Of a DNA stretch of 45,203 bases, positions 1 through 44,786 are shown in pieces. The DNA is taken from IMG/VR virus record IMGVR_UViG_3300046507_000889, positions 1 to 45,203 of that record; one strand, 5' to 3'. Every line of letters starts with the position of its first letter. Position 1 is the stretch's first letter. The translations under genes were made by a program, and so were the position numbers. The notes below the pieces were generated by a model. It worked only from the letters and a program-made list of their open reading frames with translations. It made no database searches and was not told where the DNA came from. This stretch comes from a virus.

Positions 1-44
1 TCATAACCTGAAGGTCATAGGTTCAAATCCTATCCCCGCAACCA
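1..44 (+). tRNA. 3' half of tRNA-Met(CAT), cut by window edge
   Basis: The window opens in the anticodon loop: base 1 is the U33 position, bases 2-4 are the CAT anticodon, followed by the variable region, a T arm with GGTTCAAATCC, an acceptor strand and an encoded CCA at 42-44. The 5' half lies outside the window. The bases look like an elongator-type tRNA-Met of Hyphomicrobiales. It is the integration target of the element, since the recombinase gene runs antisense into it. Identity as Met rests on the anticodon reading and on the loop sequence TCATAA. Confidence 0.85.
1..44. other. candidate attL core in the tRNA 3' half
   Basis: The tRNA 3' half abuts phage DNA and the recombinase gene, which is the usual layout of an attachment site that restores the tRNA after integration. 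The exact crossover cannot be set because no second copy of the tRNA end was found in the window; attR is therefore expected beyond 45203. Confidence 0.5.
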
Positions 45-1623
45 CCACACCCCTCGGGCCTGATCCTGTAGCGATCAGGCCCGAGGTGGCGGCCTCGCCG
101 GACAATTTAAGGATCGCGGCAAGGTGGCCGTGAATTTCGATCTCGACGGGCTGATGCGGCTTGCGCGGGTGAATGACGATTTTTTCGGTTATGTCGCGGA
201 TGCTTTGGAAAGCGATGTCGCGGCTATCCGGGTCGGACTTGGCGAGGGCGCGCTTGAGGTTCCTGATCTTGTCGCGATAGGCGTTAGCGGCGTTCGGGTG
301 AAATTCGACCGGCTCGGCGACCACCTCGGCGCGCTCGCGCTCGATCGCGTCCCGTTGCGCCTCTAGCGTGCCCAGGCGCTCTTGCAGGGCGCGGCTCGGC
401 GACGCGATCAACATATCAACCAGCTTGGAAATCGCGCTGTTGACGTTCCCAAGCCGTTTATCGATCTCGCGCTTGCGTCTGCCGGCCCGGCTGTTCAATT
501 CCCGCGAAACGCGGTGATACTCGCGGACGTATTCGGCGACAATCTCAGGGTCGCCAAGGTTCTTTTCAATCCCGATCAAAACGTAGCGCTCGATTGTCTC
601 GCGCTCGACTCGGCGGTTGTTATCGCAGAGTCCGGTTTCTTTCATGCGCGAGCAAAGCAACAGCGACGCTTTGCCGGCGCCGATCGCGCCGACGACGTAG
701 CCTGATCCGCAGCATCCGCATTTGAGCAGGCCGGAAAGCAGGTGCTTCGATTTCGCCGCCTGTTTGGTTCCGGCGCGCTCGCCTCGGCGCGCCTGTACGC
801 GCGCCCAAGTCTTGCGATCGACGATGCGCAAATGTTCGGCGTCGGCTGTCATCCAATCGGCGGGCGGGTTCGGTCGGCTCACGCGCCGGCCGGTCTCCGG
901 GTCCTTAATGAATGCCTGCCGGTTCCAGACAATGCGGCCGGCGTAAAGTTCGTTTTGCAGGATGCCGTTCATGCGGGCGCGGCTGCCGGCGATGGTTGAT
1001 GCGTTCCAGGCGCCGCCGCGCGGCCCAGGCTGCCCGGCCTTGTTGAGGGCAACAGCGATGTCACGCGGCGAATTGTTGGCGAGGTAGGAGTCGAAAATCT
1101 GCCGGACTATCGCGGCCTCGCCGGCGTCGATTTCGAGAATGCCGGGCCGGCCTAGCACGGGCCGATAGCCGTAGCTGCGTCCGCCGTTGTGTCGCCCGTC
1201 GCGAACAACGCCAGCTTGGCCGCGGTGCGTCTTTTGCGCCAAGTCTCTGAGGTACAGCGCGCCGAGTAGTCCCTTGACGCCGATATGTATCTCGCCGGCG
1301 ATTCCGTCTTGCGCCGTCCTGATCTCAACGCCGGCGAATTTGAGCCTCTTGAAAATCCCGGCGATGTCCTCTTGATCGCGCGATATGCGGTCAAGGGATT
1401 CGGCCACAACCACGCCGAACTTGCCGGCGGTGGCGTCGCGCATCATGCGCTGCAGGCCGAGTCGGTTGAAAGTGCTGGCGCCGGAAATGGCGCGGTCGTC
1501 ATAGACGCCGGCGACTATCAGTCCCTCGCGCCGGCATACCGCCCGGCATAGCTCAACCTGATCCTCAATGGATTTATCGGTTTGCTTGTCCGAACTGAAT
1601 CGCGCGTAAATCGCCGCCTTCAT
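1..1623 (-). CDS. large serine recombinase (prophage integrase)
   Basis: Site-specific recombinase of the large serine family, 540 aa, expected to integrate and excise the prophage at tRNA-Met. The start at 1623 gives MKAAIYARFSSDKQ, the canonical beginning with catalytic Ser10 in the Y-x-R-x-S motif, and has GAGGG seven bases upstream; an in-frame upstream extension adds 19 unlikely residues. Resolvase domain about 3-150 (ESLDRISRD at 75-83), recombinase domain about 165-280, a zinc ribbon with Cys302, Cys304/305, Cys324 and Cys333, and a charged coiled coil about 372-435. The last 14 residues and the TGA stop are encoded by the antisense strand of the tRNA. It is the distal gene of the leftward operon and overlaps the preceding small gene by 50 bp. 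No recombination directionality factor is recognised; one of the small upstream genes could be it. Confidence 0.93.
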   Translation of the reverse strand: MKAAIYARFSSDKQTDKSIEDQVELCRAVCRREGLIVAGVYDDRAISGASTFNRLGLQRMMRDATAGKFGVVVAESLDRISRDQEDIAGIFKRLKFAGVEIRTAQDGIAGEIHIGVKGLLGALYLRDLAQKTHRGQAGVVRDGRHNGGRSYGYRPVLGRPGILEIDAGEAAIVRQIFDSYLANNSPRDIAVALNKAGQPGPRGGAWNASTIAGSRARMNGILQNELYAGRIVWNRQAFIKDPETGRRVSRPNPPADWMTADAEHLRIVDRKTWARVQARRGERAGTKQAAKSKHLLSGLLKCGCCGSGYVVGAIGAGKASLLLCSRMKETGLCDNNRRVERETIERYVLIGIEKNLGDPEIVAEYVREYHRVSRELNSRAGRRKREIDKRLGNVNSAISKLVDMLIASPSRALQERLGTLEAQRDAIERERAEVVAEPVEFHPNAANAYRDKIRNLKRALAKSDPDSRDIAFQSIRDITEKIVIHPRKPHQPVEIEIHGHLAAILKLSGEAATSGLIATGSGPRGVVVAGIGFEPMTFRL

Positions 1624-1753
1624 GATAGCCCTCGCCGCCGTTTTGGCGGTTATAATCCTCGATTGCGGCGGCCCGCGCAAGCGCTCGGGCGATGCTTTTC
1701 AGGGCCTCGCGGGCCGGGTCCGCCGCGGCGGTTTTGCGGGTTGCGGCGGCCAT
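1574..1753 (-). CDS. small hypothetical protein upstream of the recombinase
   Basis: 59-aa Ala/Arg-rich helical protein; function not recognised. The start at 1753 is chosen because it overlaps the stop of the preceding gene as TGATG, the same coupling used through this operon. Its 3' end overlaps the recombinase start by 50 bp in another frame. The N-terminal half (ARALARAAAIEDYNR) resembles short proteins often annotated beside phage integrases in Hyphomicrobiales, from memory. A role as accessory excision factor is possible but unsupported. Confidence 0.6.
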   Translation of the reverse strand: MAAATRKTAAADPAREALKSIARALARAAAIEDYNRQNGGEGYHEGGDLRAIQFGQANR

Positions 1754-2416: not shown

Positions 2417-2754
2417 GCCGCGGCCCTCCGCAAGGCTTCTGGAATCGCCGGCACGAAATCGTAGGTGCCGATGTCGATGGTGCCGGCCGGCAACCATTCC
2501 AGTTCCTTGAAACGGACATCGGTGCCGGTGCGCACCGAGCCGCGCGGCGGCTCGGCATCGGCGGCGGCTTTGAGGGCGATCAGCGACTCGCGGATGCGCG
2601 CGGCTTTCGCCTCAAGCGCGATCAGTCCGCGGGCGCGCAGATCGGCATACTTTTCCGAGGGCGTCCGCCGGCGCTCGCCTTCGATCTCGCGCTCAACGTC
2701 TTGCAGGGCGAGCGCTGCAGTCCGGTATGCCTCGCGGGGTGATGCGGCGATCAT
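2413..2754 (-). CDS. hypothetical protein, coiled-coil N-terminus
   Basis: 113 aa. Residues about 8-65 are charged and helical (REAYRTAALALQDVEREIEG onward), probably coiled coil; the C-terminal third (FKELEWLPAGTIDIGTYDFV) looks beta-rich. Start at 2754 overlaps the previous stop as ATGA. No family recognised. Confidence 0.7.
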   Translation of the reverse strand: MIAASPREAYRTAALALQDVEREIEGERRRTPSEKYADLRARGLIALEAKAARIRESLIALKAAADAEPPRGSVRTGTDVRFKELEWLPAGTIDIGTYDFVPAIPEALRRAAA

Positions 2755-3005
2755 GCGCGCACCTCGCCGATGTCGCGGGCGATCTCGGCGCCGCGGGCAT
2801 TGAGCGTCGCACGCTTGCCGCCTTTTGACGTGCTGATGTCGACAAGTCCGCGCGAGGCGAGGCCGTCCACATGGGCGTTCGGGATTTTGCGCCAGCCGGC
2901 CCTGCCGGCCCATCCGTTGCCGCGGTGCTTGTGGTAAAGCGAACCGCGCATTGCGCAAACGGCCAGCGCCAAGCGCTCGCCTTTCGGTAATTCTGATGCT
3001 GTCAT
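2751..3005 (-). CDS. small winged-helix-like protein, first gene of leftward operon
   Basis: 84 aa. The middle and C-terminus (a helix NAHVDGLASRGLVDIS followed by a basic hairpin KGGKRATLNARG and a terminal helix) read like a winged-helix DNA-binding fold. As the first gene directly under the two leftward operators, it could be a regulator or a directionality factor; both are inference. Upstream GGGG near the ATG serves as a weak ribosome site. Confidence 0.7.
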   Translation of the reverse strand: MTASELPKGERLALAVCAMRGSLYHKHRGNGWAGRAGWRKIPNAHVDGLASRGLVDISTSKGGKRATLNARGAEIARDIGEVRA

Positions 3006-3029: not shown

Positions 3030-3046
3030 ATAGCCGATTAGGCTAT
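3030..3046. promoter_or_regulatory. operator palindrome OL1
   Basis: ATAGCC-GATTA-GGCTAT, perfect 6-bp arms with 5-bp spacer. It lies 25 bp upstream of the first leftward gene and 35 bp (start to start) from a second copy. Expected binding site of the repressor encoded at 3221-3973. Confidence 0.85.
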
Positions 3047-3064: not shown

Positions 3065-3081
3065 ATAGCCAAATCGGCTAT
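3065..3081. promoter_or_regulatory. operator palindrome OL2
   Basis: ATAGCC-AAATC-GGCTAT, perfect arms, same spacer length as OL1. The stretch 3082-3120 upstream is AT-rich compared with the surroundings, so the leftward promoter probably sits across OL2/OL1; no clear -35/-10 pair stands out. Confidence 0.85.
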
Positions 3082-3160: not shown

Positions 3161-3185
3161 GCCGGGGACTGGTTAGGTCCCCGGC
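3161..3185 (-). terminator. intrinsic terminator after the repressor gene
   Basis: GCCGGGGAC and GTCCCCGGC form a perfect 9-bp stem with a 7-base loop, with an A7 run on the left and a T5 run on the right, so it can work on both strands. On the minus strand it ends the repressor transcript before the leftward operon promoter. Confidence 0.9.
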
Positions 3186-3220: not shown

Positions 3221-3973
3221 TTAGTCCTCGCGGATATAGACGCCGCGCACGCGGCCGATGATCTCGACCTTGATTCCGTCCGCGCCTTCAAGCGGCATCC
3301 ATGTCTGATGCGCGGGATGATTGGACTCCGGCTTCAACCAATACCTGCCATCGCGATCTTGCGTTAGGCAGCGGATGGTTTCTTCCGTCGTTCCATCGGG
3401 CCGCGTTGCGCGGACGTGGTAACGTCGATTGATGGCAATTTCATCCGGTTTCGCCATGATGCGACTGCAGATGATTACCGTTTTTTCAGGAAACCTCGCA
3501 TCGCTTGCCGGCCCTTTGAGTTCGCCGGCATACAGTTCGACCCCTGCCAGCGCAATATCTTGAGGTATCATAATCTCTTTGCAATCTGTTGCGGGCCACT
3601 GATGATTCTTAAGCCAGATACCGCCTTGGAAATAAAATGTCACCTTAATTCTGATCATATCACCATTGAGCGGTTGCGCGATCAGGTCGGTTGCGGGAAC
3701 CGAATAAACTTCGCCGAGCATATTCATCCAATCTAGAGTCAAAGTGCGCAGCCCGCTTGCGAGCTTGCCGATTGTTACTTCGTGGGTTTTTAAAAAGTTC
3801 TTTAGTTTCTTTTCGCGCGCGCGGCTGCGCACGCGTTCCGCCACCTCGGCATAAGTCCAGTGCCGTTCCTGGGTTAATTCGAAAATTCGGTTCGGGTGTT
3901 GTCGCGGCGCTGCGGTTTGCGCGGACGCCTTGCGACGGCCGGGTGTCCGGCTTTGGGCTTTGTGATGCGGCAT
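3221..3973 (-). CDS. LexA/CI-like prophage repressor with degenerate catalytic dyad
   Basis: 250 aa. N-terminal XRE-type helix-turn-helix about 28-98 (ends with GLRTLTLDWMNMLGEVYSVP), then a linker and a C-terminal S24/LexA-like beta domain about 110-250 ending VEIIGRVRGVYIRED. It should maintain lysogeny by binding the ATAGCC-N5-GGCTAT palindromes on both sides. Compared with the family pattern RGxSM...P(D)GTVxIC, this protein reads KGPASDARFPEKTVIIC: the catalytic Ser position is Ala156 (next residue Ser157), and the catalytic Lys of the ATVKEY-type strand is Arg201 in EETIRC. It may therefore be non-cleavable. The start at 3973 is the first ATG; an in-frame TTG lies three codons upstream. 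The ribosome site is weak. Function as repressor is strongly supported by context; loss of cleavage is by manual alignment. Confidence 0.88.
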   Translation of the reverse strand: MPHHKAQSRTPGRRKASAQTAAPRQHPNRIFELTQERHWTYAEVAERVRSRAREKKLKNFLKTHEVTIGKLASGLRTLTLDWMNMLGEVYSVPATDLIAQPLNGDMIRIKVTFYFQGGIWLKNHQWPATDCKEIMIPQDIALAGVELYAGELKGPASDARFPEKTVIICSRIMAKPDEIAINRRYHVRATRPDGTTEETIRCLTQDRDGRYWLKPESNHPAHQTWMPLEGADGIKVEIIGRVRGVYIRED

Positions 3974-4017
3974 GGTTCGCAATTGTATCCCAATGAAATC
4001 AATATCAAATAGCCAAA

Positions 4018-4039
4018 ACTGTCAGGGGCCGTTGACAGT
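4018..4039. promoter_or_regulatory. inverted repeat ACTGTCA-N8-TGACAGT upstream of early operon
   Basis: Perfect 7-bp arms with spacer GGGGCCGT. The right arm provides a TTGACA -35 hexamer. Related copies occur at 15227-15246 and 38554-38573 with the same 8-bp spacer length, and a degenerate one near 13930. It lies between an isolated ATAGCC half-operator (4009-4014) and the full operator at 4041-4061. Confidence 0.7.
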
Positions 4040-4060
4040 AGAATAGCCGATATGGCTATT
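4032..4060 (+). promoter_or_regulatory. early rightward promoter
   Basis: TTGACA at 4032-4037, 17-bp spacer, then GCTATT at 4055-4060, which lies inside the operator palindrome. Repressor binding would cover the -10 region, matching a lambda PR-like arrangement. The -35 is perfect, the -10 weak. Confidence 0.65.
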
Positions 4061-4174: not shown

Positions 4175-4747
4175 ATGTCAAAAATCGACGGCCACGGGCC
4201 GGCGCATGCGGAGTTTTGCCAGTGTCCCGCGTGCCAATCGCCCTTTACCTCGCGGCGGCAGCCCGTTTCGGTTTTCGTTAGCACGCCGGGCGTTCCCGAC
4301 ATTCCGCGCGGCGACCGTTTTGAACCGCTGCCGCCGATCGACGGCCGCGCGCTGACATGCGGCAAGATTGCGCCATACCGCGCGCCCGTCGCGATCTTGA
4401 AAACCAACGTCGACGTTCTAACGGCGCTGATCGCGCTCGCCGAGGAAATCGTTGCGCGCGAGCATGCCGCCTTTGACAAGATGGTCGACCTTTGTGCGCT
4501 AGAGCCTGACTTGAAGGCCGCGCAATCGCGCCCGGTGCGCCACGTCGCCGACGCCGAGACAATCCTTTTTCTCGCGCTTTCCCAAATCGCCGGCGGCCAT
4601 ATCAGCACGGTTGATGTCTACCGCTATCGGCTGATCGCAACCGACGTGTTGCCGATCGTGCGCGATCATCTTTACGCGGCGGCACTCGCCGAGGCGTCGG
4701 AATCCGAACCGCAACTAAAGGCGGCGCGCGCATGGGGGAAGCTATGA
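4175..4747 (+). CDS. hypothetical early protein with N-terminal Cys cluster
   Basis: 190 aa, first gene of the rightward early operon. Start at 4175 has a strong GAGGGGG site; the earlier in-frame ATG at 4052 lies inside the operator and is rejected. The N-terminus has C-x-C-x2-C (FCQCPACQSP) and a further Cys in ALTCGK, a possible partial zinc site. The C-terminal 100 residues are helical. Family not recognised. Its position is that of cro/cII-type regulators, but no helix-turn-helix is clear. Confidence 0.8.
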   Translation: MSKIDGHGPAHAEFCQCPACQSPFTSRRQPVSVFVSTPGVPDIPRGDRFEPLPPIDGRALTCGKIAPYRAPVAILKTNVDVLTALIALAEEIVAREHAAFDKMVDLCALEPDLKAAQSRPVRHVADAETILFLALSQIAGGHISTVDVYRYRLIATDVLPIVRDHLYAAALAEASESEPQLKAARAWGKL

Positions 4748-5268
4748 GGCAGACGTTGCGAGACAGTTTGCGGTCGGCATGGCATGGCCCGTTGACGGCC
4801 GCCGAGATCGCATCGCGCGAGGGCGTCAACGGGCGCCGCGTGCAGCGCTTTTGGGCGCAGGAAAAAAAGGCCGGGCGGCTGCCGACCGATGCGCCGCGCC
4901 CGCATTTCATCGATAGCGCAGCGCGCGACGTGCAGGTTGCCGTCAAGGCGGCGATGGGTTTTGCCGCCGACGACGGCGAGGATGATGCGGTCGACTTTAC
5001 CGCGGACACCGCGCCGATCGGCGGCGCCCTCGGCGTCCGCATCCCGGCGCCGGACCCGTTGCTTGCGGCGCTCAATCGCGAGCATGCCGCGGATTGCTGG
5101 CGTCATGTCGACGGCATGCCGGCGGACGTTCTGAAAAAAGAGGCCGATGGCGTTGTGCCGGCGCGGTGGCGCGTGGCGCAATTCGCCATGCTGCGCGACG
5201 CATTTGTGTCGGCCCTGATGCGCCTCGTTACGCAACGTCAAACTCGGATGATCGGAAGGGCCGCTTGA
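4744..5268 (+). CDS. putative helix-turn-helix early protein
   Basis: 175 aa. The first 55 residues (HGPLTAAEIASREGVNGRRV followed by QRFWAQEKKAG) look like a winged helix-turn-helix; the rest is helical and acidic in the middle. Start at 4744 overlaps the previous stop as ATGA and has GGGGGAAG upstream; an ATG four codons earlier is possible. Probably an early DNA-binding regulator, or a replication-initiation accessory protein; not recognised further. Confidence 0.78.
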   Translation: MRQTLRDSLRSAWHGPLTAAEIASREGVNGRRVQRFWAQEKKAGRLPTDAPRPHFIDSAARDVQVAVKAAMGFAADDGEDDAVDFTADTAPIGGALGVRIPAPDPLLAALNREHAADCWRHVDGMPADVLKKEADGVVPARWRVAQFAMLRDAFVSALMRLVTQRQTRMIGRAA

Positions 5269-5624
5269 TGCCGGACAACCATTCAAAAACCGTGACGCTG
5301 CAAATCGTCGGCGGCACCGGAGCGAGCCGGTCGGAATTGCGCGATGCCATCGCGGCCAACGCGTCCCGCCTGGGTTTCGAAATTGTCACCTCGGGCGAGC
5401 TTCTGTTTTCCGGCGGGCCGACCATGACGTTGCGCCGGCTCGGCGCCGATCGCGGGCACTACATCGGGCTTGATCGCGCGCTGCCGGGCGAGACGGTCGC
5501 ATTCGGTCGGCCGGAATGCGTCTTTGCATTCTGCCCGCACGGCAACGATTGCAAGCAACGCGCCGAATGCCGGCATCAGCGCGCCGACACGGCGGACGAA
5601 ACAAAACCACGCGAGGGAAAGTAA
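5268..5624 (+). CDS. hypothetical protein with C-terminal Cys-rich motif
   Basis: 118 aa, starting at the TGATG junction with the previous stop. The C-terminus contains C-x4-C-x5-C-x5-C-H ([20 protein letters not shown]), which could bind a metal. The N-terminal 80 residues look alpha/beta. Immediately precedes ssb. No family recognised. Confidence 0.7.
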
Positions 5625-8690: not shown

Positions 8691-9259
8691 TGTCTGAGGC
8701 ACGCATAGGCGACTGGATTCAGACGTTCAGTGGCGGGCAATTCTGGCCGCTTGATCCGCGGCCCGAGGAAATCGAGGTAATCGACATCGCGTCTGGCCTC
8801 GCCAAAGAATGCCGTTTCGCCGGGCATTGCCTGCGCTTCTATTCGGTCGCTGAGCATAGCGTGCTGATGTATCGCCACGCCAAGGCGCGCGACGCAAATC
8901 TGCGGCTTCGCCGCGCGGTTCTATTTCATGACGGCTCGGAAGGACTCGGGCTGCGCGATATTCCGCGGCCGATCAAGCGTGATCTCGGCGAGTATAAGGC
9001 AATCGAACGCGGCGTCATGGGCGCCGTAGCGCGCCGGTTCGATTTCGATTTTCCATTTCATCCGTTCGTAAAGGAGCTTGATGAAGCAATCGGCCTCGCC
9101 GAGCAGATGCAAAACATGGCGCCGTCGCCGGCGCCTTGGTTCCAAACCGCGCGGTTCGATGCACCGGCGCCGCTGGCCGTGATGCTGGAATACTGGCCGC
9201 CTGATCGGGCGATGGTCGAGTTTCTGAGCGCTGCCGCCGAGTTGGGTTTGCTGCAATGA
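8690..9259 (+). CDS. HD-domain phosphohydrolase (YfbR-like nucleotidase)
   Basis: 189 aa. The pattern WIQTFSGGQFWPLDPRPEEI, then AEHSVLMYRH, then VLFHDGSEGLGLRDIPRPIK matches the phage/bacterial HD family with metal ligands H, HD and a later D/E (ELDEAIG). It likely dephosphorylates deoxynucleoside monophosphates, feeding the dNTP pool together with the MazG-like enzyme. Start at the TGATG junction. GDMPRP of common relatives reads RDIPRP here. Confidence 0.88.
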   Translation: MSEARIGDWIQTFSGGQFWPLDPRPEEIEVIDIASGLAKECRFAGHCLRFYSVAEHSVLMYRHAKARDANLRLRRAVLFHDGSEGLGLRDIPRPIKRDLGEYKAIERGVMGAVARRFDFDFPFHPFVKELDEAIGLAEQMQNMAPSPAPWFQTARFDAPAPLAVMLEYWPPDRAMVEFLSAAAELGLLQ

Positions 9260-9624
9260 GCAACCGCGGCGAGGGCTTCACAGTCGAAACGGTGCGGCGC
9301 CGCGCGCCGAATGCAGACTACGCCTCAAAGCCGGGCGATGCCCGGCGCTCGGGCCGTATCGATCGCGCGCGCGGGCAAGCGGTTGTGACGATCGAGTTCA
9401 AGGACTCGTCTGCGCAAATCGAGGCGCGGCTTGGAGTCGTGGTTGTCGGCGCCGTCACGCATGACGTTACCACGGGCAATTACTTTTGGGCCGTATTCCT
9501 GCCGATGATGTCGAACGTGCCGCGGCCGGCGCTCGATGCCGAGAAAGCAAAGGGCGCCATCGCGCACAAGGTTCGCGAATGGTGCGAGGCCGCCGGCCTG
9601 ATCAGCGTGCGGCGGCGGGGTTAG
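9256..9624 (+). CDS. hypothetical protein
   Basis: 122 aa, ATGA-coupled to the HD gene. Basic N-terminus, beta-rich middle (VVVVGAVTHDVTTGNYFWAV) and a helical C-terminus. No family recognised; position suggests a role in the same replication/modification block. Confidence 0.75.
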   Translation: MSNRGEGFTVETVRRRAPNADYASKPGDARRSGRIDRARGQAVVTIEFKDSSAQIEARLGVVVVGAVTHDVTTGNYFWAVFLPMMSNVPRPALDAEKAKGAIAHKVREWCEAAGLISVRRRG

Positions 9625-9628
9625 GTTA

Positions 9629-10147
9629 ATGGCCGCGATGCTGATCGATCCGCTAGTTTCGTTCGACTCGATTTCGATGGCGGAATTGAACCGATGCCTT
9701 GTCGCGTGGCAGCACAAGATGGGGCCTTGGCAGCGTCCGAACTACGGCGCACAGGCGTTTCACGGCTTGCGCCATGACGGCGTGCTGGTCGCGGTGTGCG
9801 CAGCTGCGCCGATGATCCGAGGCGAGACGGTCGGCGGCTTGACCCGTGATGACGCGTTTGAACTTGGCCGCGTCTGCGCCGAGCGCCGCGATCTCTGCCG
9901 CGTCGCACTGCGCTTGTGGCGCGAATTTGTATTTCCGAGCATGTGCCGAGCGCACGGGTGGCGATGGGTAATCAGTCACCAGGACGCGGCGCTGCACTCG
10001 GGCGGACTCTACCGCTTTGACGGATGGGTAGCGCTCGGCACGTCGCGCAGCGGGACGGATCAGCGCTCGGGCCGCAAGGGCCGTAGCAAGGTCGTTTGGG
10101 GATGGTCCCGAGATCGCGCGGCCATGGACGAGAGGCGGTCGCCGTGA
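9629..10147 (+). CDS. GNAT-like protein resembling phage Mom / XF1762 families
   Basis: 172 aa. The order of motifs, FELGRVCAERRDLCRVALRL (core acyl-CoA-type strand and helix), then WVISHQDAALHSGGLYRFDG, then a basic C-terminus GRKGRSK, parallels the Mom-type pattern E-L-x-R-V, S-[FY]-x-D-x4-H-x-G-x-[IL]-Y-x3-[NG]-W. Mom proteins of phage Mu modify adenine in DNA and defeat restriction. Whether this protein does so is inference from similarity in memory; a plain GNAT acetyltransferase is the alternative. ATG at 9629, a second ATG at 9638. Its stop overlaps the next GTG start. Confidence 0.6.
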   Translation: MAAMLIDPLVSFDSISMAELNRCLVAWQHKMGPWQRPNYGAQAFHGLRHDGVLVAVCAAAPMIRGETVGGLTRDDAFELGRVCAERRDLCRVALRLWREFVFPSMCRAHGWRWVISHQDAALHSGGLYRFDGWVALGTSRSGTDQRSGRKGRSKVVWGWSRDRAAMDERRSP

Positions 10148-20018: not shown

Positions 20019-20654
20019 ATGGCTAATCCGCCTCTTGTGATTATCGTTGGCGCCGACAAGGGCGGCGTCGGCAAAACGATGGTTTCGCGCGCGTTGCTTG
20101 ACTACCTGAAAACCAACGGCATCGAACATCGCGCGTTCGATACAGAAACCCCGGCCGGCGTGCTCAAGCGCTTCTATCCCGAAAAAACCGAAATCGTGGA
20201 TTTCACGGACTCGGATGGGCAGATGAAAGTGCTGGACACGCTCGGCGCGGCCATCACCGTCATCGACATTCGCGCCGGCCTGTTGACGCCGACCCTGCAG
20301 CTGCTCGCGCAGATCGGTTTCATCGATCCGGCCAAATGCCGGATAGTGGTGTTGCACGTCCTAGGCAACACGCAATCATCCATGGATGAGGTGAAGGCGA
20401 TCACCGCGAGCCTCGCCGGCGCGCGCTATGTCGCGATCGGCAACCGCATCAATGATACCAAGTTCGACTTTCCGGCCGCCGCGCTTGACATTCCGATGCT
20501 GAATGCGCGCGCGTGCGAGAACGTCGACGCCGCGAGCGCGTCGTTTTTCAGCTACATCAACGGCACGGCATCGGCCGTGTTGCGCGGCTACGTCAAGCAT
20601 TGGCTCGGCGTGGTGTTTGCGCAGTTTGACTCGGTGCAGATCGTCACGCGCTAG
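20019..20654 (+). CDS. ParA/TraL-like P-loop ATPase in the head gene cluster
   Basis: 211 aa. Deviant Walker A KGGVGKT at 14-20 with the signature Lys14, preceded by VIIVGAD; later VIDIRAG is the Walker B-like strand. This is the ParA/MinD/TraL group of SIMIBI ATPases, used to position or transfer DNA. It is unusually placed between large terminase and the head-joining protein. AAGGA precedes the ATG. No ParB homologue was recognised in the window; an RHH protein at the right end is a possible partner. The function here is unknown. Confidence 0.88.
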   Translation: MANPPLVIIVGADKGGVGKTMVSRALLDYLKTNGIEHRAFDTETPAGVLKRFYPEKTEIVDFTDSDGQMKVLDTLGAAITVIDIRAGLLTPTLQLLAQIGFIDPAKCRIVVLHVLGNTQSSMDEVKAITASLAGARYVAIGNRINDTKFDFPAAALDIPMLNARACENVDAASASFFSYINGTASAVLRGYVKHWLGVVFAQFDSVQIVTR

Positions 20655-39935: not shown

Positions 39936-40382
39936 ATGCTGACATCCTTAATTGTGACGGCTGCCGGTGTCGTCGGTTCGGGCGCCGGCATCTATATCGC
40001 CGCGATGTTCGTTCCGACGTTCGCGGCGCTGCTCAAGTCGACGCTCGACTTTCTGCGCTCGCCGGTCGGCATGATTGCCGGCGCGATGGTCGGCGCCTTC
40101 CTGCTCTACTCGGCGGGATGGGTCGGCGGCGACATTCACGGCACCAACAAAACGCGGACCGCATGGCGTGCGGCGCGCGTGGCAGCGGAAAAGGCTTGGA
40201 CAATCCGCGAGGCGGTAATCCGGCGTGACATGCGCGCCGAGGCGGATAGTCGCCTCGCTGCGATCGGCAAAGATGAAAAATCAATCGACGTGAAGGAAAA
40301 ACGATATGAGGACTCGACTGTTGGCCCTGCCTATCCTGCTACTGCCGACGATATTAAGCGGCTGTATTACGGCATCAGGTAA
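39936..40382 (+). CDS. Rz-like inner-membrane spanin
   Basis: 148 aa, starting 3 bp after the endolysin. Two hydrophobic segments (about 4-28 and 45-63) and a charged helical periplasmic tail (AARVAAEKAWTIREAVIRRD) fit an i-spanin, though classical Rz has one membrane helix. The Rz1-like gene starts inside it at 40306 in another frame, which is a strong spanin mark. Confidence 0.78.
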   Translation: MLTSLIVTAAGVVGSGAGIYIAAMFVPTFAALLKSTLDFLRSPVGMIAGAMVGAFLLYSAGWVGGDIHGTNKTRTAWRAARVAAEKAWTIREAVIRRDMRAEADSRLAAIGKDEKSIDVKEKRYEDSTVGPAYPATADDIKRLYYGIR

Positions 40383-40635
40383 CGGCCCCGCCGTCGACTT
40401 TCGCGACGCGTCGCCGGCGGCCGTTGCAAAACAGAACGTTCCGCGCGAGTGCCAGCGCATCTTGCAGCGCGTCCCTGATCCGGGCGGCAAAGATGGCGCG
40501 GAGCTTGTCGGCGTCGACTGGCGAAAGATCGCCGGGCGCTACCGCGGCGCATGGCTCAAAGGCAATCGCCGCATCGTCAAGGCTCGCGAGTGCGATGACA
40601 CGCAAGCCGACAAGCTTGCGAAAGGCGGGCGTTGA
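40306..40635 (+). CDS. Rz1-like outer-membrane lipoprotein spanin
   Basis: 109 aa. Signal peptide MRTRLLALPILLLPTILSGC with lipobox LSGC and lipid-accepting Cys20. Nested start within the Rz-like gene, +1 frame relative to it, as in lambda Rz/Rz1. It completes outer-membrane disruption. GAAGGAAAAACG precedes the ATG. The mature part is longer than typical Rz1 and less Pro-rich. Confidence 0.82.
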   Translation: MRTRLLALPILLLPTILSGCITASGNGPAVDFRDASPAAVAKQNVPRECQRILQRVPDPGGKDGAELVGVDWRKIAGRYRGAWLKGNRRIVKARECDDTQADKLAKGGR

Positions 40636-41024
40636 TGGCTGGAAAGCAAATTGATTTAGGCGCGCTTGAACAGCGCGTCTATAACCTCGGCGGCGGCCAC
40701 GATGATTTGCGCAAAGAGGTTCGCGGGCTTGAGTCCAAGATGGACTCTGGCTTCCTCTTGCTAGCGCAAAAGATCGACCAAAAGACGACGCCGAACTGGC
40801 AGCCGATCAGCATTGCCGTCACCATCATGATCGCGATTTTTGGGGCGCTCTACTATCCCGTGCGCGAAGCACTCGGCAAGCATGACGTGCAGCTAGAAAC
40901 GCTGCGCGCCTCAACCAACGTCGAAGTCGTCCGGCTTTGGGAAGCTGAAAACCGCACCTCGCGCGAGCTTTCCTATCTGCAAGGCCAGTTGCATCCGCTT
41001 GTGCCGATGCCGCCGGCGCGCTGA
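40635..41024 (+). CDS. membrane protein, possible holin
   Basis: 129 aa. Coiled-coil-like N-terminus (NLGGGHDDLRKEVRGLESKM), one membrane segment about 56-75 (QPISIAVTIMIAIFGALYYP) and a helical C-terminus. TGATG overlap with the Rz1-like stop. Location in the lysis cluster supports a holin or lysis-regulator role; not proven. Confidence 0.65.
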   Translation: MAGKQIDLGALEQRVYNLGGGHDDLRKEVRGLESKMDSGFLLLAQKIDQKTTPNWQPISIAVTIMIAIFGALYYPVREALGKHDVQLETLRASTNVEVVRLWEAENRTSRELSYLQGQLHPLVPMPPAR

Positions 41025-43160: not shown

Positions 43161-43859
43161 CTAATCGGCCGCCTCGCAGGCTATTAGCGGCAAGTCGCAT
43201 TCGCCGCACATTAGCGCTGCCGTCGCCTTTGCCCAGGCGGCGAGGCCGCAGCCGGCGCACTCGAATTTCGTCTTGCTCTTGGCTTTGGCTGCGCGGGCTT
43301 TCTTTGCCTTTTCGTCGCCTTCATTCCAGCGGTCGCCGAGCAATTCGCCGAGGCCCTGCTTTTCTATCTCAGTGAAGGCGAGATCGAACGGGCCGCCCTC
43401 AACGATGTAGTGGCTAACGCGCTGCCCGGTTTCCTTGCCGCCCGGTGCGCCCGTGCTTGACGGGTGCAGGCCGATCTTTTTCATGGCGCCGGCCCATTCC
43501 TTATTATGGTAGCCGTTGCGCGAGGGCTTGCCGAAATGCTGATGCCAGAGGTGCGCCATTTCGTGCGCGAGGGTCGACAAGATCGCCTTGGCGTCGCGCT
43601 CGGCAAAGTGCATCGGATTGAGTGCGATCTCGTCCGTGATGGTTGCGCCGTCGCGGCTGCCGAACCGCTCGGGCGCAAAGTAGCCATAGGCACCCTTGTG
43701 CCGCTGCATGGTGATCAGGCAGCGCGGCAGGTTGCCGTCGAATAGCCGGGCGTTGAAAAAGTCATAGGCGCGATTGAGGCCGGCATAGGTGTGCGTCGTC
43801 GGGTCGGCGATCGGCGCCGCGGCGGCTGAGTTTGTATCGTACGAAACAACGTTTAGCAT
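43161..43859 (-). CDS. SprT-like zinc metalloprotease-type protein
   Basis: 232 aa. HEMAH at 99-103 (LAHEMAHLWHQHFG), then a C-terminal zinc ribbon CAGCGLAA...CGEC near 200-222. SprT/Spartan-like proteins remove DNA-protein crosslinks or act in transcription; phage copies are common. GAGGAACGA precedes the ATG at 43859. Its codons 4-9 carry the second copy of the parS-like palindrome. Confidence 0.9.
   Translation of the reverse strand: MLNVVSYDTNSAAAAPIADPTTHTYAGLNRAYDFFNARLFDGNLPRCLITMQRHKGAYGYFAPERFGSRDGATITDEIALNPMHFAERDAKAILSTLAHEMAHLWHQHFGKPSRNGYHNKEWAGAMKKIGLHPSSTGAPGGKETGQRVSHYIVEGGPFDLAFTEIEKQGLGELLGDRWNEGDEKAKKARAAKAKSKTKFECAGCGLAAWAKATAALMCGECDLPLIACEAAD
43832..43849. promoter_or_regulatory. 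second parS-like palindrome copy (17/18)
   Basis: TTGTATCGTACGAAACAA differs from the 19985-20002 copy at one base. It lies inside the 5' end of the SprT-like coding sequence on the minus strand. A chance second copy of an 18-bp word is very unlikely. Confidence 0.6.
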
Positions 43860-44201: not shown

Positions 44202-44400
44202 TACAATTCTGCCGCGCGTGGGCAGGAAGCGAATCAATAACGAGCAAACGCCGGCGCGCTTTCCGGCCGGAACGCTGGCGCGGATCGATGCGGCCTGTGA
44301 CAAGTCTAAGAATGAGAAAAGGTCGGACCTGATCAGGGAGGCGGTTGAGCGCGAGCTACGCCGCCGCGAAAAACTCAAAGAGGGAGGGCGCGCCAAATGA
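44182..44400 (+). CDS. ribbon-helix-helix (CopG/Arc-like) DNA-binding protein
   Basis: 72 aa from a TTG start at 44182, which has AAAGGG at a proper distance. In-frame GTG codons at 44158 and 44194 are the alternatives. ARFPAGTLARIDAACDKSKN then SDLIREAVERELRRRE is the strand-helix-helix pattern. Overlaps the XRE gene as ATGA. It probably represses its own promoter at the GATATC cluster. RHH proteins can be partners of ParA-like ATPases; here this is only a guess. Confidence 0.82.
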   Translation: MTTNVISTILPRVGRKRINNEQTPARFPAGTLARIDAACDKSKNEKRSDLIREAVERELRRREKLKEGGRAK

Positions 44401-44786
44401 AGCAGCCCGACCTGATCGATCAGCATGTCGGCCGCCGCATCCGCATGCGTCGGGTGATGATCGGAATGAGCCAAGCGGAGTTAGGCGATCGGCTCAACTT
44501 GACGTTCCAGCAAGTGCAAAAATATGAGCGCGGCGTGAACCGCGTCGGCGCCAGCAAACTGCACACGATTTGCCGCGCGCTGGATGTCCCGGTTTCGTTC
44601 ATGTTTGAGGGTTTGCCCGGTGCCGCTGGCGTGACCGGCCTGCCGCTGTGGTTCATGGATTTCTTGGGGACGCCAGCCGGCCAGCGCATTGCCGCCGCGA
44701 TCGGGCTGATTGACGATCCCGACATCCGGGAGAAATTCGCGGCGCTGATCGAAAGCGTTGCGGCCCGCATCGGCAAAAAAGCCTGA
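44397..44786 (+). CDS. XRE-family transcription regulator
   Basis: 129 aa. Helix-turn-helix about 10-65 (VGRRIRMRRVMIGMSQAELG; QQVQKYERGVNRVGASKLHT), then a helical C-terminal part with IREKFAALIESVAARIG. The helix-turn-helix resembles regulators common in Hyphomicrobiales chromosomes. Co-transcribed with the RHH gene. May belong to the phage or to the flanking host DNA. Confidence 0.9.
   Translation: MKQPDLIDQHVGRRIRMRRVMIGMSQAELGDRLNLTFQQVQKYERGVNRVGASKLHTICRALDVPVSFMFEGLPGAAGVTGLPLWFMDFLGTPAGQRIAAAIGLIDDPDIREKFAALIESVAARIGKKA

Follow-up and report, generated by a model that had tools for sequence, protein, structure and literature searches.

The repressor gene at the left end of this viral record raises a question about the prophage switch, i.e., whether a repressor that keeps the LexA/S24 fold has lost the means to cut itself, and how the prophage would then be released. 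The window, meaning the whole stretch of DNA analyzed, is the entire IMG/VR record IMGVR_UViG_3300046507_000889 (45,203 bases) and is likely an integrated temperate phage. Family matches cover most of the structural, replication, and lysis genes (terminase, portal, head protease, capsid, tape measure, tail fiber, endolysin, primase, and DNA repair exonuclease were matched), and the phage is apparently intact. PHROGs gave no match for five of 20 window proteins compared (39936-40382, 5268-5624, 9256-9624, 20019-20654, and 40632-41024). The left end carries a recombinase gene:

1..1680, minus strand: large serine recombinase with Resolvase, Recombinase, and Zn ribbon domains (domain matches)

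The 3′ end of this gene overlaps a sequence at approximately 1-43 which, read by eye, resembles a tRNA 3′ half whose anticodon is CAT. An ARAGORN scan of the window yielded no complete tRNA, and a search for attachment-site repeats found no 14-base word common to its first and last 2000 bases.

Our main reading, to which we assign a probability of about three in four, is that the repressor gene encodes the protein that maintains lysogeny in a temperate phage which looks intact, and that this protein is an S24-fold pseudo-protease uncoupled from RecA. This reading combines computed residue changes, a predicted fold, operators, a recognition-helix match, and the other phage genes. The gene and the altered positions are as follows.

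3221..3973, minus strand: repressor gene, 250 aa, with HTH helices at residues ~29-98 and a LexA/lambda CI-like C-terminal domain at residues ~105-250 (ORF and predicted fold)
3620..3625, minus strand: Gly117-Gly118, where the family has its Ala-Gly cleavage pair (QAG to QGG, residues 116-118; alignment)
3506..3508, minus strand: Ala156 codon GCA, replacing the catalytic Ser (alignment)
3503..3505, minus strand: Ser157 codon AGC, replacing the Met located directly after the nucleophile in relatives (alignment)
3371..3373, minus strand: Arg201 codon CGC, replacing the catalytic Lys (alignment)

The ORF starts with ATG at 3973, stops at 3221 on the minus strand, and is open throughout. Autocleavage of S24 proteins requires an Ala-Gly (or Cys-Gly) pair together with a Ser-Lys dyad, as stated in PMC8565304. 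The sequence-only reading had noticed K-G-P-A-S (residues 153-157) and E-T-I-R-C (residues 198-202) and proposed that the catalytic Ser and Lys are lost, which the alignment bears out, as Ala156 and Arg201 stand against Ser in 49/49 and Lys in 48/48 readable relatives (L142 ends before the Lys position). Aligned with S24-type relatives, the window protein departs at the Ser, at the Lys, and also at the Ala-Gly pair, which is kept in 49/49 relatives; this change to Gly-Gly was absent from the sequence-only reading and adds to it. The family motifs given there need partial correction: the Ser motif is T-R-G-P-S-M-N, with the Ser and Met as stated, while the Lys motif is A-T-V-K-x-L and not A-T-V-K-E.

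These counts refer to a table of 49 relatives, i.e., 47 viral loci (L102-L148), one Nostoc phage, and one Agrobacterium plasmid, which includes near-copies such as L103/L104 and L114/L120. The 47 viral loci are the output of a scan with a nine-sequence alignment that limited the nucleophile to Ser or Ala and the next residue to Met or Ser, and other substitutions would therefore escape it. A second scan, in which the nucleophile and the residue after it were unrestricted, returned 13 loci (L192-L204), all with canonical residues, although most are records already among the 47; the Lys motif of L201 reads EDTVKTL in the printed sequence, the script's Lys pattern having matched the wrong place. 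The nearest annotated relatives are the repressors of Nostoc phage Nsp-JY10 (31.7% identity over 75% of the query) and of the Agrobacterium salinitolerans plasmid pAtCFBP5507b (34.3% over 72%), with 32-33% identity in the alignment, and both read QAG, GPSMN, and TVKTL where the window protein reads QGG, GPASD, and TIRCL.

Among 48 relatives (L142 dropped), 18 columns are near-invariant (at least 95% identical), and the window protein keeps 13 of them. The five losses are A117G, S156A, M157S, K201R, and G182N, and loss is thus concentrated on the autocleavage residues; outside the columns of Ala117, Ser156, Met157, and Lys201, 13 of 14 are kept. In a leave-one-out version of the test, the lowest relative (L148) keeps 15/19. 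If five losses fell at random over the 18 columns, A117, S156, and K201 would all be lost with a probability of 105/8568 = 0.012, and M157 as well with a probability of 14/8568 = 0.0016 (hand calculations). A chance reading of the motifs was rejected, as the losses fall among near-invariant columns, and a frameshift or misassembly fails as an explanation because the C-terminal domain aligns with its relatives almost without gaps.

Sequence profiles hardly recognize the protein. Pfam returned two unrelated families (E 0.02 and 0.15), with PF00717 absent even at an E limit of 10 and no HTH match; searches of PHROGs, NCBIfam, and PDB sequences gave no match. PF00717 was matched above the cut-off by L106 and by the Nostoc and Agrobacterium relatives, unlike the window protein. 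Across the whole record, PF00717 gave nothing at E up to 1, and a second S24 protein acting in trans was rejected on the lack of a Pfam S24 match elsewhere in the record.

The LexA/S24 fold, which had been read from the letters, nevertheless appears to be kept according to structure prediction. An AlphaFold2 model of the repressor (pLDDT 88.3, from a 44-sequence alignment) was compared with PDB structures: residues 107-248 match lambda CI (8gmu; Z 12.7, rmsd 3.1, 122 aligned), residues 108-248 match LexA (1jhe; Z 12.5, rmsd 3.4, 122 aligned), and residues 104-250 match the C-terminal domain of phage 186 CI (2fkd; Z 10.1, rmsd 2.9, 108 aligned). At the other end, residues 25-103 match the N-terminal domain of TP901-1 CI (3zhm; Z 10.5, rmsd 1.9, 75 aligned), and the N-terminal HTH also matches P22 c2 (Z 9.4). 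The model of relative L106 has a pLDDT of 92.8, and the family profile aligns its QAG, G-S-M, and T-x-K with those of lambda CI itself (3bdn). The C-terminal domain is probably retained for dimerization.

Whether such a protein would still act as a repressor depends on its sites in the DNA and on its recognition helix.

4044..4058, no strand: operator upstream of the repressor, TAGCCATATCGGCTA in repressor orientation, the same as in 7 relative loci (palindrome search)
3066..3080, no strand: operator of a pair past the 3′ end of the repressor (palindrome search)
3031..3045, no strand: other operator of the pair, spaced 35 bp from the site at 3066 and before the leftward ORF 2751-3005 (palindrome search)
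3764..3784, minus strand: recognition-helix motif H64-E-V-T-I-G-K70, pattern H..T[IV].K (coordinates derived from the ORF)

The palindrome TAGCC-N5-GGCTA occurs three times in the window (3031, 3066, and 4044), each time exactly; 0.38 sites would be expected with one mismatch allowed, and 2/100 shuffles reach three. The proximal operator TAGCCATATCGGCTA is the same at 15/15 bases in L192, L193, L194, L195, L196, L197, and L203, all of which have canonical residues and, unlike the window, an additional site close to their start. At least one repeated palindrome was found near 35/50 repressors, the window included, compared with 0-3/50 in 20 base shuffles; some of those 35 have palindromes outside operator-like places (e.g., L112, L122, and L137), and 15/50 loci had none. 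A site 70-110 bp before the repressor start, combined with two sites downstream of the gene that lie 34-36 bp from each other, was counted by hand in 14/50 loci, the window included. Operator arms vary by group over the 50 loci (TAGCC, TAGCG, TGTCG, and ATGGG) while a similar layout recurs.

Closest in arrangement are six loci (L103, L106, L107, L132, L160, and L195) which share with the window the domain order, an identical proximal operator, and the recognition-helix motif; identity to the window protein is 32-37% for the first five. Unlike the window, all six retain the canonical Ala-Gly, Ser, and Lys and bear an additional operator close to the start, and L132 and L195 have one exact site after the gene where the window has a pair. 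Nsp-JY10 and pAtCFBP5507b likewise combine a proximal site with two sites 35 bp apart downstream of the gene, but they differ in their canonical Ser, Lys, and Ala-Gly and in their operators (TAGCG-N5 and TGTCG-N5, respectively), and in the plasmid an extra site lies upstream.

The motif H..T[IV].K was present in 11/11 loci of the TAGCC group, the window with HEVTIGK included, and in 0/44 others, a pattern formulated after most members had already been seen; L195 was examined later but had been found by a pattern already containing a version of the motif, and L168 and L177 stand outside this table. In a protein-blind scan of viral_contigs for TAGCC pairs, 35 stretches were found, eight with a repressor frame by the C-terminal profile in addition to L157, which has a similar layout but a C-terminal domain that this profile missed. 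The motif lies near the sites in 9/35 stretches, exactly the nine in which this kind of repressor was found. Among the 26 stretches without it, 15 have at least four sites whose spacing differs, being mostly 18 or 24 bp, and such arrays (e.g., L158 and L161) are probably something else. In L168 and L177, a TAGCC pair 32 bp apart lies beside another type of S24 repressor that lacks the motif, and L166 and L190 each have two TAGCC pairs 33 bp apart. As a side observation, L158, L161-L163, L167, L169, L171, and others have at least four TAGCC-N5-GGCTA palindromes at 18, 24, or 36 bp and no repressor motif nearby.

Operator arms seem to go with the recognition helix; the helix of the window protein fits the TAGCC operator group and, together with the operators, suggests that the protein still binds DNA. 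Compared with its relatives, however, the window HTH carries an N-terminal extension and 13 residues inserted ahead of the recognition helix, so binding to these operators stays a prediction; inserts at that place also occur in two members of this operator group, L159 and L172. Judged from sequence, the window protein still looks like a working repressor.

The surroundings of the gene allow a tentative control circuit to be drawn.

2751..3005, minus strand: first leftward ORF after the operator pair, 84 aa (ORF list)
3161..3185, no strand: hairpin resembling a terminator, past the repressor gene and flanked by T tails in both directions (consensus scan only)
3982..3987, minus strand: TACAAT, possible -10 of the repressor promoter
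4032..4037, plus strand: TTGACA, possible -35 of a rightward promoter, 6 bp before operator 4044
4175..4747, plus strand: first rightward ORF, 190 aa (presumed start)

The start at 4175 is preferred because the ATG at 4052 falls inside the operator. The hairpin separates the repressor from the operator pair at 3031 and 3066, and a consensus scan of the window reported neither the TTGACA nor the TACAAT promoter. Repressor bound at 4044 would block the rightward promoter, and bound at 3031 and 3066 it would hold the leftward early promoter; it would probably hold its own promoter as well, with three TAGCC-N5-GGCTA operators in all. Autocleavage appears lost at each of its three requirements (scissile Ala-Gly pair, catalytic Ser, and catalytic Lys), and owing to these losses RecA filaments would not trigger self-cleavage and the lambda route of induction would be absent from this prophage. 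The earlier claim that the protein cannot autocleave after RecA activation is thus very likely correct, with both the residue loss and the changed cleavage pair in its favor. Release, if any, would come from a protein or ligand that lifts the uncut repressor off DNA, or from spontaneous switching; dimerization, noncleavage, and mode of release are, like operator binding, what we infer.

The sequence-only reading had gone further and held that induction must use another route such as an antirepressor or a competing regulator. Its account of fold and residue loss is supported, but the obligatory route is not: no antirepressor family was recognized among the window proteins scanned, no exact LexA box was found, and spontaneous release only or no induction at all fits equally. 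The box sought was GAAC-N7-GAAC, which we take to be the alphaproteobacterial LexA box and which may not be that of the host; it occurs 0 times in the window compared with 1.43 expected, and with one mismatch 33 times compared with 35.4 expected, i.e., with no excess.

Three modes of release were weighed. SOS-independent induction through a dedicated sensor or a small protein, or else purely spontaneous switching, is possible and is put forward tentatively. It agrees with the lack of an exact GAAC-N7-GAAC box in the window, as far as this box is that of the host, whereas no such sensor module was recognized there. Small proteins that inactivate CI without proteolysis and independently of SOS are described in PMC10432266, where 210 of the 271 CI proteins in one study are given as putatively non-autoproteolytic.

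An SOS-coupled antirepressor, where a LexA-controlled small protein would lift the uncleavable repressor off DNA, is somewhat unlikely. CI is uncleavable in N15-type linear plasmid phages, as predicted for the window protein, and N15 has the antirepressor AntC. Such coupling keeps several phages with uncleavable repressors SOS-inducible, according to PMC3121763 and PMC7708051: phage 186 is induced by the Tum antirepressor (PMC7708051), and the Gifsy repressors GfoR and GtgR, of ~150 aa and resembling the CI N-terminal domain only, are uncleaved and opposed by LexA-controlled antirepressors (PMC3121763). The window protein would resemble GfoR and GtgR in not being inactivated by self-cleavage and differs from them in its full C-terminal domain. 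Phage 186 CI, which is not known to have the Ser-Lys dyad, shares with the window protein a LexA/CI-like C-terminal fold, and its C-terminal domain is one of the structures matched by the model (2fkd, Z 10.1). Several small ORFs in the window are without known function and could supply such a protein. However, phage 186 has a LexA-controlled antirepressor and none was recognized in the window, nor does the search for GAAC-N7-GAAC, which may not be the host's box, favor LexA control, given no exact copy and no one-mismatch excess.

Also somewhat doubtful is the absence of any route, with a locked or decaying prophage that underwent an ind-minus change and obtained no replacement. The changes occur in one sequence only and a non-inducible lysogen would be expected to survive DNA damage, but the main phage genes are open and matched, the operators are exact palindromes, and the three autocleavage features are changed while 13 of 14 other near-invariant columns are kept.

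In LexA, a Lys-to-Arg change leaves slow cleavage at high pH, a point against the main reading. That the window repressor still self-cleaves through Ser157 and another base is very improbable and such a rescue would be unlikely on sequence grounds, for Ser157 immediately follows the changed nucleophile position but occupies the Met column of 48/48 relatives, and at this invariant position its side chain should therefore point elsewhere, Arg201 stands in place of the Lys base, Lys214 should sit on the opposite face of the sheet by the strand order of the model, and the cleavage pair is Gly-Gly.

No other carrier of the residue changes seen in the window protein was found by a back-translated K-G-P-A-x-D-x-R-F-P-(E/D) pattern in viral_contigs (0 hits), by scans with the window protein alone, by an alignment scan of genome_contigs, or by P0001 compared with 25 records with related terminases (run with no positive control), in search sets that may omit close neighbors of the window's genome. 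The residue changes are thus known from one sequence, with no close homologue in the searched sets, and the titles and abstract openings of the open-access literature described no dead S24 dyad for this phage group.

Related departures were seen in other phages. L088, L151, and L152, phages with related terminases, have S24 repressors that keep Ser and Ala-Gly but have Gly in place of Lys in an otherwise conserved block, where L153, L154, L155, and L091 have the Lys; the cleavage pair is Lys-Gly in L155 and Met-Gly in L091. The repressor of L157 (8866-9522), with TAGCC operators and a similar layout, has a C-terminal domain missed by Pfam S24, in which EGG and NNAL were read by hand in place of the S24 AG and SM, and it may be a second degenerate S24 domain; one profile alignment is weak over this domain, and another extended over the HTH and the start only. 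From the Lys-to-Gly change and the possible degeneration of L157, it follows that dyad loss may recur; if true, uncoupling would be a recurring step in these phages. In L007/L142, the repressor frame of an otherwise similar phage stops early, directly past the Ser motif.

Uncleavable phage repressors are already known; what would be new is a full S24-fold repressor without all three features in a group where the other members analyzed here retain them. A further-reaching idea, that release now answers to a different signal, which a ligand or protein would convey via the dead domain, in a group that otherwise keeps the DNA-damage switch, is rather unlikely. An S24-type repressor is often taken to predict induction by DNA damage, and a prediction from fold or layout would mislead here because the predicted fold and the operators of the canonical group remain while the chemistry is gone. 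Since relatives share the proximal operator sequence, this single site would allow a cleavable repressor to be set against an uncleavable one, and would thereby reveal how loss of the SOS switch affects a lysogen. The association of recognition helix and operator may also help to classify these phages by immunity.

Other genes of the window include, at 9629-10147 (plus strand), a protein that weakly matches the Mom-like DNA modification family (phrog_1384, E 2.9e-4) and, at 20019-20654 (plus strand) in the terminase-portal interval, a ParA/CbiA-like ATPase under the Pfam cut-off. The right end contains a SprT-like protein (43161-43859, minus strand) and a second HTH_3 regulator (44397-44786, plus strand).
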